Positions 13,376 through 31,600 of a DNA stretch of 64,000 nt are shown here, piece after piece. The stretch's first letter is position 1. The number at the start of each line of letters is the position of its first letter. The position numbers and the translations under genes were made by a program. Source of the DNA: Williamsia sterculiae (GTDB lineage Bacteria; Actinomycetota; Actinomycetes; Mycobacteriales; Mycobacteriaceae); assembly GCF_900156495.1 (NCBI RefSeq), contig NZ_FTNT01000009.1:62001-126000 (forward strand). The letters run 5' to 3'. The notes under the pieces were generated by a model. The model ran no database searches. It worked only from the letters and a program-made list of their open reading frames with translations, and had not been told where the DNA came from.

Positions 13376-13729
13376 GTGACGCAGCAGCTGCGCCCTCGCC
13401 GTAGGACCACTGTCACGCACGCGGTATGTGGACCCGATCGGGCGAGCACGCTGGCCGACCTCGTGTCGCACGCTGCCGACGCGGCCCATGAACGCCCCGC
13501 GTTGACCGGACCCGATTACACGGTGAGTTTCGGTGAGTTGCGGGCGCGGACGGCCGGCGTCGCGTCGGTGATGTCGCCCGGCGACCGATCGGGAGACTCC
13601 GCCCTCACGGTCGCGCTGATGACCGCCATCCCGGGGCTGGCCCTTGCCGGACCTCAGCGCCTGGCCGATACGCTGAGTTCGATCCGGACCGAGGCGACGA
13701 CCGTGCTCGCCCAGAGCCGGCTGCGCTGA
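13376..13729 (+). CDS. Small protein with adenylation-domain N-terminus-like mini-domain (1)
   Basis: 117 residues from a GTG with GGGAG seven bases upstream, first gene of the rightward unit and 29 bases before mbtH. After ~23 basic residues, the segment [19 protein letters not shown] and [11 protein letters not shown] follows the opening of NRPS adenylation domains (normally TLxxLFxxxAxxxPxxxAL ... TYxELxxRxN). It then diverges into [14 protein letters not shown] and a short helical tail ([12 protein letters not shown]). No ATP-binding or catalytic motif is present, so it cannot be an active adenylating enzyme. The same pattern occurs in the protein after mbtH and twice inside the synthetase (24214-24480 and 30952-31236). 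Function unknown; a structural partner of the synthetase or a relic are both possible. Confidence 0.6.
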
Positions 13730-13758
13730 GGTCACGCCCAGCGAACCAGGAGGTAGTG

Positions 13759-28600: not shown

Positions 28601-31600
28601 AGACCACCATCATGACCAACATCAGCCAACCGATGCGTCCGGGCGCTGCGGTGACCATCGGTGGTCCGATCACCGGTGTGCAGGCACTGGTCCTCGACGA
28701 GCGGCTGCGGCCGACCCCGATCGGCGTGCCCGGCGAGCTGTACATCAGCGGACCCGGCGTCTCCAGGGGATATCACGATCAGCCCGGCCTGACGTCGCAA
28801 CGTTTCGTCGCGAATCCGTTGTCGGTCGACGGTGATCGGATGTACCGCACCGGCGACGTCGTGCGCTGGGTCGAGGTGGCCACCGGCGATGACAGTCCGT
28901 CGACGCGACTCGAGATCGCCTACCTGGGTCGATCCGATCAGCAGGTCAAGGTTCGCGGCTTCCGCATCGAACTCGGTGAGATCGACGCGGTGCTCACCGG
29001 ACATCCGGCCGTGGACTTCGCGGTGACCGTGGGTGTAGAGGGTCCCGCGGGTGACACCGTGTTGGCCGCCTATGTGACCGTCCGTCCCGGCAGCAGCGTC
29101 GACGCTCGCGACGTCGCCGACTATGCGGGTGGTTTCCTGCCGAAGTTCATGGTGCCGACGTCCATCATCGTCCTCGACGAGATCCCGCTGACTCCGGTGG
29201 GTAAGTTGGACACCCGCGCACTACCCGCGCCGGAATTCCTCGGCGTCGCGGCCGAACACCGGGAACCGTCCACACCCATGGAGGCCGCGATCGCCGGTGC
29301 CTTCGCCGAGGTGTTGGGTGTCGAGTCGGTCGGTGCCGACGACTCGTTCTTCGATCTGGGTGGTAATTCGCTGGCCGCGACCCGGGCGATCGCGCGTATC
29401 AACGAGGTGCTGGGGATCCGACTCGGGGTGCGGATGCTCTTCGAGGCGTCCACGGTGAGCGGACTGGCGGCGTCGATCGCCGCCTCCCCGGATCTCGACG
29501 GTCAACCCGTCCGGCCCCTGACCCGGCAGCCGCGTCCGGACCGCATCCCGTTGTCGCTCGCGCAACAGCGGATGTGGTTCGTCAACCGACTGAATCCCGA
29601 GGCTGCCGACTACAACATCCCGCTCGGGCTGCGTTTGCGTGGCGCGGTCGACGTCGACGCGATCGGTGTCGCACTGTCCGATCTCGTTGCGCGACAGGAA
29701 ATTTTACGGACGATCTACCCGGATTCGCTGCGCGGGCCGTATCAGCAGATTCTCGACGTCGAGCAGGCAACCCCCGAGCTCGAGGTGCGACAGGCCGGTT
29801 CCGACCAGGAGATGCAGGCGCTGTGCCTGGAGGCGGCGACCGCGGGCTTCGACGTCACGTCGGCGCCGCCGATGCGCGTCCTGCTGATCGAGCTGGCACC
29901 CGAGGACCACGTGCTGCTGTTGGTCATCCACCACATCGCAGCGGACGGTTCGTCGTTGATGCCGCTCGCCTCGGACCTGATCGCGGCGTATACGGCCCGA
30001 CTCGCAGGCGGGGAGCCGACGCTGCGGCCGTTGCACGTGCAGTACGCGGACTATGCGGTCTGGCAGCGCGCGGTGATGGGTTCGGAGTCGGATCCGGAGT
30101 CGCTGGCGTCGCGGCAGATCGCATTCTGGCGGCAACACCTGGCAGGCCTGCCCGAGCTGCTGGCGCTCCCCACCGACCGCCCCCGGACCGACCGACGGTC
30201 GATCGCCGGTGGCGAGGTGCCCTTCGTGATCCCGGCGGACATCCAGGAACGCCTGCACGCGATCGCCAGGGACAACGAGACGACCATGTTCATGGTGCTA
30301 CATGCCGCCTACTCGGTGCTGTTGTCTCGGCTCAGCGGCGCGACCGACGTGGCCGTCGGTACTCCCACCGCCGGTCGCAACGCATCGGCCACCGAAGGTC
30401 TCGTCGGCATGTTCGTCAACACGCTGGTGTTGCGGAGCACGGTCGATCTCGCCGAGACGTTCCGATCGGTGTTGGCCAAGACCAAGACCTCCGACCTTGC
30501 CGCATTCGGCAACTCCGACCTGCCGTTCGAGCAGGTGGTCGAGGTGGTCGCCCCGAACCGGTCGCGTAAGTACGCGCCGTTGGTACAGGCGATGTTGACC
30601 ATGCAGAACATCGACATCCCCACCGTCACCCTGCCGGGTCTGGAGGTCGGGCAGCTCGAGTCGCCGATACGGTACGTGAAATCTGATCTCGGACTGACGA
30701 TTTCGGAGAGCTTCGGTACCGACGGTCGCGGTCGCGGGATCGACGCGATCTTCGACTACGCGCTGGACATCTTCGACGAGTCGTCCGTGCGGGCCATGAT
30801 GGAACGGTTGCTGGCCGTGTTGGAGGCGATCGCCGACGATCCCGACGTCGTCGTCGGTGACATCGACATCCTCACCGGTGATGAACGTGCGGAGATCGTC
30901 ACCCCGGACTCGCGAGGATTCGGTTCGGCGCTGGCCGATCTGCGTGGCCGCTCCCTGTCGGAGCTGCTCGAGACCGCTGCACGTATCAATCCCGGTGGGA
31001 TCGCGCTGTCACACAACGGCACCGATGTGACCTATCAGGCACTGCACGACAAGGCCACCGAGCTGTCGGTCGCGCTGAACGCGGTGGGCGTCGGCCCGGA
31101 AGCGGCGGTGACGGTGGCCCTGTCGACCATGTTGCCCGGGCTGCTCGACGGCGATGCCGCGGACGGTTTCGGCGAACGCTTCGCCGGCATGCTCGCGTCC
31201 GTCATCGCCGAGTCGGGGGAGTCCCCCGATCGGGGCGCGCTGACCTTGCCGCAACTGTTCGACGAGCAGGTGCGCCGGACCCCCGAAGCCACCGCGCTGG
31301 TTTTCGGCGACGAGACGATGAGTTACGAGGAGTTCTCGTCGCGCGTGGCGCGCCTCGCCCGACACCTGATCAACGCGGGTGTCGGCCCCGAAGTCCATGT
31401 GGCCCTGGCCATGCGGCGGTCGTTCGAGCTGCTGATCGGTATGTATGCGATCGTCGAGGCGGGTGGCACCTACGTTCCCCTGGACCTCGACAATCCCTCC
31501 GACCGCATCGCCTACGTACTCGACAGCGCGCGCCCGGTGCTGGTGTTGACCACCGCGCGTGACGGTTTCCGCGTTCCCGACGCCACAGTCGTCGACGTGT

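Follow-up and report, generated by a model that had tools for sequence, protein, structure and literature searches.

Mini-domains with an adenylation-domain-like front as candidate docking domains in a giant nonribosomal peptide synthetase locus of Williamsia sterculiae

Why does something that looks like the beginning of an adenylation (A) domain, and stops well short of an enzyme, recur four times in a single biosynthetic locus? The question is raised by a stretch of 64,000 nucleotides from Williamsia sterculiae (contig NZ_FTNT01000009.1, positions 62,001 to 126,000 of the forward strand), referred to here as the window, which encodes a giant nonribosomal peptide synthetase (NRPS) preceded by an mbtH gene with a small gene on either side. 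The original prediction, made from the sequence alone, described a common mini-domain in the two small proteins (P0001 and P0002) and between the condensation (C) and A domains of NRPS modules 3 and 5 (X1 and X2), and proposed that it might be a docking or scaffolding element or, alternatively, debris of module loss. In relatives, copies of the mini-domain cap the facing ends of neighboring giant enzymes, which makes a plug-and-socket role the most likely one. The mini-domains probably constitute a docking-domain pair, composed of a C-type and an N-type form, that links neighboring NRPS subunits.

A mini-domain family distinct from A-domain starts

All four segments translate as originally described (Table 1). 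When scored with profiles built without the window sequences, they gave 70.6 (P0001), 72.2 (P0002), 73.9 (X1), and 101.3 (X2) bits with the mini-domain profile and 19.0, 9.1, 33.3, and 38.7 bits, respectively, with a profile of A-domain N termini. The nine native A-domain N termini of the window showed the reverse pattern, with 17 to 49 bits for the mini-domain profile and 97 to 134 bits for the A-domain one. The original prediction was to be abandoned if the segments proved no closer to each other than to ordinary A-domain starts; the observed ranges (71 to 101 bits versus 9 to 39 bits) favor it, since the four segments score as mini-domains and the nine window A domains as A starts. Scanned with the profiles, the 11,265-residue NRPS open frame yielded the nine A domains and extra mini-domains at residues 3076 to 3160 (before A3) and 5321 to 5408 (before A5) and none at the remaining C-A junctions, in agreement with the statement that the other junctions lack the segment.

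In Pfam searches, X1 and X2 matched the start of the AMP-binding domain PF00501 only with their first ∼50 residues (profile positions 4 to 49 and 2 to 55 of 384, respectively) and below the curated cutoff, and P0001 and P0002 had no PF00501 match. A full AMP-binding domain is thus absent from all four, as is consistent with the reported lack of ATP-binding motifs. Neither Pfam nor NCBIfam contains a family for the mini-domain itself, the NCBIfam matches being starts of A domains or acyl coenzyme A ligases far below the cutoff. The only PF03621 match in the five proteins scanned was the product of the gene between the two free-standing copies, which confirms its assignment as mbtH; the mini-domain proteins are not MbtH-like.

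The homology with A domains is confined to the front part. Columns 2 to 64 of the 93 mini-domain columns were aligned by hhalign (probability, 97.2) on columns 10 to 72 of an A-domain profile (built from a sample of 70 out of 156 A domains, each represented by 500 residues), whereas the last 44 mini-domain columns alone had no match to that profile. In the PDB, nearly all of the best 60 sequences found with the sequence profile were A domains or related ligases, matched at positions ∼6 to 65. The AlphaFold2 model of X2 (predicted local distance difference test score [pLDDT], 86; predicted template modeling score [pTM], 0.78; 26 aligned rows) consists of a helix, a beta hairpin, and three further helices, and Foldseek superimposed it on A-domain starts over ∼50 residues with a root mean square deviation of 1.4 to 1.5 Å and, in several rows, 34 to 36% identity (best E value, 0.064). 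With this model and that of a natural tandem (see below), Foldseek returned nothing at an E value of ≤0.001, and A domains were the top-ranked rows. The matches listed by VIA-align were also mostly A domains and ligases (Z scores of 3.5 to 6.0 for the X2 model and 2.6 to 5.2 for the tandem); ∼70 to 80 residues were aligned, yet the chain ranges run ∼200 to 230 residues past the start. This suggests that the last helices of the mini-domain superimpose on A-domain structure farther along the chain, a lead to which the sequence test lent no support. Since columns 2 to 64 match the A-domain profile, the last 44 do not, and the X2 model overlays A-domain starts, the mini-domain is an A-domain front end joined to a different helical back part, and, unlike the A domain whose start it shares, it does not have the length needed to hold the ATP-binding and catalytic motifs of an enzyme.

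A profile search of relatives, proposed as a check along with the original prediction, showed the family to be widely conserved. With a 25-member profile, it was detected at an E value of ≤1e−15 in 195 of 401 genomes, belonging to 16 of the 31 genera, of the taxonomic family of the window organism; in a class-wide draw, 8 of 394 genomes were positive at an E value of ≤1e−13, and every one of these came from the same taxonomic family. In both surveys, 13 candidates were scored for most genomes, so some members may have been missed. Named members, found with a Rhodococcus phenolicus query, include Rhodococcus and Rhodococcoides species. In a draw of 111 family genomes that was not hand-picked, 54 were positive (genomes are referred to below by G numbers). 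The 150 matches listed for this draw comprise 39 free-standing copies (in open frames of <450 residues), 40 embedded copies (two in each of 20 NRPSs), 54 copies that make up 27 adjacent pairs on two open frames in 25 genomes, and 17 others.

Position at subunit junctions and the two forms

In all 17 split clusters read, which were chosen from profile hits, many of them for two close hits, one copy is the last element of the upstream subunit, 3 to 24 residues from its stop codon, and another lies directly before the A domain of the downstream subunit; the stretch preceding the C-terminal copy matches the C domains of the window. The same arrangement was seen at 14 further junctions, also chosen from hits (five further named loci, one each in G103 and G020, and seven more), for a total of 31 NRPS subunit junctions with a mini-domain after the upstream C domain and another one before the downstream A domain. 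The R. phenolicus query returned 11 loci, all with the paired arrangement, 6 of which share contigs with the 17 clusters. In four Rhodococcus loci, the downstream start codon immediately follows the upstream stop codon in the same frame. Complementary elements at facing subunit ends, the general hallmark of docking domains, are therefore present at 31 junctions and in at least 27 adjacent pairs of the 111-genome draw. The A domains that follow N-terminal copies of the main lineage (see below) mostly resemble A1 and A5 to a similar degree, which leaves the match of these split junctions to module 5 ambiguous.

The copies at the two ends belong to different forms. A tree of 66 copies (92 columns) was rooted at the midpoint, so that its groups are sides of a branch. 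In its main lineage, 14 C-terminal copies group together with support of 89/85 and 14 N-terminal copies with support of 99/98. In a second, beta lineage, the C-terminal copies of G008, G012, and G037 group with P0001-like proteins (99/87) and the N-terminal copies of the same genomes with P0002-like proteins (97/88). Because of this grouping, the free proteins are best read as one C-type (P0001) and one N-type (P0002) partner, judging from sequence; their geometry is that of a subunit junction, with the domain last in P0001 and first in P0002. The X2 copies of nine NRPSs form a single group (100/98).

In the main lineage, the two forms also differ in the charge of helix 2. At one position, 13 of the 14 C-type copies have Lys or Arg and 13 of the 14 N-type copies have Glu; a neighboring position is acidic in 13 of 14 copies of the N-type only, and two others carry Lys in 12 and 13 of 14 copies of the C-type only. 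The net charge of helix 2 is higher in the C-type member in 14 of 17 pairs (14/14 in the main lineage and 0/3 in the others). Such a contrast is what would be expected of partners.

The embedded copies could be remnants of the same kind of junction. X2 scored as C-type-like in all nine NRPSs typed by profile. Two kinds of junction, which differ in subtype, occur in both G020 and G103. The second kind has X1-like copies on both sides, and the A domain after this break in G020 shares 65% identity with A3 in the fused G022 NRPS (501 bits, the best non-A3 match being 181). As that A domain resembles A3, the window X1 precedes the A domain at which the G020 synthetase splits. We infer that X1 and X2 mark former subunit junctions, each of which has kept one copy.

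Several observations weigh against this interpretation of the junctions, the two forms, and the embedded copies. Seventeen of the 150 matches listed have no listed partner, although 3 of these (in G008, G041, and G047) were later paired by sequence; an N-terminal X1-like copy in G103 is preceded by a gene that has no C-terminal copy, and the two copies of G027 are ∼11 kb apart. An AlphaFold2 model of a natural tandem read through the stop codon (13 aligned rows) has two folded domains, with ten-residue blocks mostly at pLDDT values of 80 to 94, but its pTM of 0.50 means that their mutual orientation is not confident and hence that the model neither shows nor excludes an interface. The charge contrast was noticed post hoc in 14 pairs that are related to each other; it is missing from the three beta-lineage pairs and is not evident in the free pair. 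Profile typing of the P0002-like copies is weak, an N-type profile exceeding both C-type profiles in five of six cases by 1.4 to 10.1 bits. Typing of X1 is ambiguous (C-type higher in 6 of 9 copies, N-type in 3); the X1 group does not include the X1 copy of G017, and no specific grouping of X1 or of X2 with the C- or N-terminal copies was seen. Fused NRPSs carry one copy per junction, whereas a simple fusion would leave two. Finally, the best match of the C domain upstream of the G020 break is not C3, so the break is placed at module 3 by its A side only.

In G103 (contig C5, loci L167 and L168), a single upstream subunit (a 3,210-amino-acid frame) with a C-terminal X1-like copy is found together with two downstream subunits (frames of 8,812 and 8,820 amino acids), whose N-terminal X1-like copies are very similar and whose first A domains are different; the upstream line might thus naturally be able to select either of the two downstream ones. 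Further mini-domain hits that lie in NRPS frames and have no partner among those listed were seen at G103 C16:5352, G020 C16:6699, and G026 C140:75607.

Proposed docking role and its alternatives

According to the favored docking explanation, the front of a ∼90-residue docking domain would be a copy of the opening ∼60 residues of an A domain (helix, beta hairpin, helix), with a helical back replacing the remainder of the enzyme. The C-type form closes the upstream subunit right behind its condensation domain and the N-type form opens the following one immediately ahead of its adenylation domain; their binding, presumably specific, would rebuild, noncovalently, the C-A platform of a module that is divided between two proteins. 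Such junctions would have become fused in the window NRPS, leaving one copy at each (X1 and X2), and P0001 and P0002 around mbtH would be a detached two-protein docking complex, most likely acting on the same assembly line. This role of the free pair is tentative, its chances being somewhat short of even. Under a more elaborate and rather doubtful scenario, the paired forms join subunits, the embedded copies pair with each other or in trans, and the free pair competes or bridges, thereby switching the connections between modules; G103, with its one upstream and two downstream subunits, would then be a natural example of such a choice. A requirement of X1 and X2 for P0001 and P0002 as partners was considered and rejected: for 8 of the 20 genomes in which the NRPS carries two embedded copies, no free copy is among the matches listed (exactly two matches each in the genome table), so X1 and X2 do not depend on a free pair.

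Docking systems at NRPS subunit junctions are known, and the sections on NRPSs and beta-hairpin domains in PMC9113145 list the COM class at E/C junctions, the PAX class at PCP/C junctions, and the beta-hairpin/short linear motif (SLiM) class at PCP/C, PCP/Cy, and several other interfaces. These sections name no class at the C/A junction, none derived from an A domain, and none with two homologous partners. Like the mini-domains, COM and PAX domains form complementary pairs at subunit junctions, and salt bridges aid the specificity of PAX; unlike them, COM acts at the E/C junction and uses part of a C domain, and PAX is a three-helix bundle first found at the PCP/C junction (PMC9113145, same sections). 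At the mini-domain junctions, an A domain follows the N-terminal copy and a C-like stretch precedes the C-terminal one, which is not the E/C setting of COM. The beta-hairpin/SLiM system is likewise paired at facing subunit ends, and its N-terminal partner is built as helix-hairpin-helix-helix, a topology similar to that of the mini-domain model. However, its C-terminal partner is a disordered peptide of <15 residues, as described in those sections of PMC9113145, whereas the mini-domain partners are predicted folded homologs, the C-terminal one having ∼90 residues and its own predicted fold. No beta-hairpin docking domain was among the matches listed in the Foldseek and VIA-align comparisons of the mini-domain models. 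A search of titles and abstract openings in the open-access literature found no published description of such a domain, and the family appears to be undescribed so far. The mini-domains are best read as a new class of NRPS docking domain, one that would bring the C and A domains of a split module back together.

If this reading is correct, NRPS docking would extend to the C/A junction, where the consulted sections of PMC9113145 name no class, and the front end of a catalytic domain would have been turned into a connector. The several pair types (main, beta, and X1-like) could then be used to split and rejoin synthetases between C and A domains, and they could aid in predicting the subunit order of many giant NRPSs in Rhodococcus and related genera.

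The free copies bring in the question of MbtH. Of the 19 genomes in which the free pair was read, 18 have the gene order P0001-like gene, mbtH, P0002-like gene; in the remaining one, G012, the two free genes are adjacent and the 67 kb read contains no mbtH. In the genus designated g9, a single free copy lies directly 3′ of mbtH in all three genomes read (G143, G383, and G411). Ratios of nonsynonymous to synonymous substitution rates (dN/dS; NG86, 10 genome pairs each) were 0.03 to 0.43 for the P0001 core and 0.03 to 0.25 for P0002, some of them unreliable because of dS values of >1. Conservation of the free-standing genes in relatives, on which the original prediction depended, is thus borne out by both the retained gene order and the mostly low dN/dS. 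It is conceivable that MbtH is brought to the synthetase, or placed on it, by the free copies, for which the NRPS-borne copies would serve as landing sites. The flanking of mbtH in 18 of 19 genomes and the g9 arrangement would fit such a function; on the other hand, it is at odds with the absence of a listed free copy from 8 of the 20 genomes that carry two embedded ones, with the G012 free pair that has no mbtH in the stretch read, and with a third copy in G010, G058, G131, G170, and G115 that has no adjoining mbtH in the stretch read. In addition, the region of the A domain that MbtH contacts lies farther along the chain than the one copied in the mini-domain. This explanation is therefore considered unlikely, and for the original docking or scaffolding idea the outcome is divided: the occurrence of the same domain on facing subunit ends elsewhere favors docking, and what speaks for a link between MbtH and the NRPS is gene order.

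Two further alternatives do without a partner. Each copy could be a rigid spacer or a fold-stabilizing cap that packs on its own C or A domain. This would agree with the observations that the NRPS-borne copies read follow a C-like stretch or precede an A domain and that embedded copies occur one per junction, but it would leave unexplained both the co-occurrence of two distinct forms on upstream and downstream subunits and the existence of free-standing copies with no C or A domain attached, and we regard it as improbable. Even less credible, and very improbable, is the debris that the original prediction had offered as its second option, namely that the copies are A-domain relics of module loss, duplication, or recombination, carried along in linkers without a function. 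The front part is indeed homologous to the A-domain start (the hhalign match described above), and each embedded copy is directly followed by an A domain; nevertheless, this reading is disfavored by the spread of a single family over 195 of 401 genomes in 16 of 31 genera, by a back part that does not resemble A domains, by the precise terminal positions of the copies and their occurrence in pairs, and by the mostly low dN/dS of the free members.

P0002-like proteins of the window, of G010, G017, G043, and G058, and of 12 further genomes share a C-terminal tail with the pattern T-x-E-[IM]-D-L-R-x-I-A-x-R-L, which G012 fits loosely and from which G158 departs. The tail may correspond to the A10 motif of A domains, with its lysine replaced by glutamate; by this analogy, P0002 would retain the head and the tail of an A domain but not its middle. 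The third free-standing copy of G010, G058, G131, G170, and G115 (L044, L046-L047, and L152-L154) is located downstream of the giant NRPS, and in G010 and G058 a gene that by eye looks like a family 2 glycosyltransferase is found near it.

The window locus

The A domains and mini-domains of the window NRPS were identified by profile, and its C, T, and E domains were called by eye from their motifs. The resulting module order is C-A-T-E, C-A-T, C-X1-A-T, C-A-T, C-X2-A-T, C-A-T, C-A-T, C-A-T-E, C-A-T-E.

Table 1. Coordinates of the features discussed, numbered from the first nucleotide of the window
Feature	Coordinates	Strand	Remarks
P0001, free-standing, C-type (free1)	13376..13729	+	Mini-domain core at ∼13448-13708, at protein C terminus
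mbtH	13756..13980	+	Between the P0001 and P0002 genes; PF03621, E value of 1.2e−29
P0002, free-standing, N-type (free2)	14239..14667	+	Mini-domain core at ∼14302-14562; conserved C-terminal tail at ∼14614-14664
NRPS, 11,260 amino acids	15004..48786	+	Nine A domains; two embedded mini-domains, X1 and X2
X1, embedded mini-domain	24214..24468	+	Module 3, C/A interval; translation, profile scan
X2, embedded mini-domain	30949..31212	+	Module 5, C/A interval; translation, profile scan, model
NRPS end	∼47400-48786		Seemingly epimerization-type domain (by eye)
NRPS neighbors	8379-13118 and 48831-50717	−	Listed in the text

An epimerization-type domain is seemingly the last one in the window NRPS, and inspection of this end by eye revealed no thioesterase; a nearby lipase is a candidate for product release. 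The NRPS neighbors on the minus strand encode proteins resembling wax ester synthase/diacylglycerol acyltransferase (DGAT), an ABC-2 permease, a DrrA-like ATPase, a family 2 glycosyltransferase, and the class 2 lipase. These genes suggest that the product is an exported peptide, perhaps modified with a lipid or a sugar.
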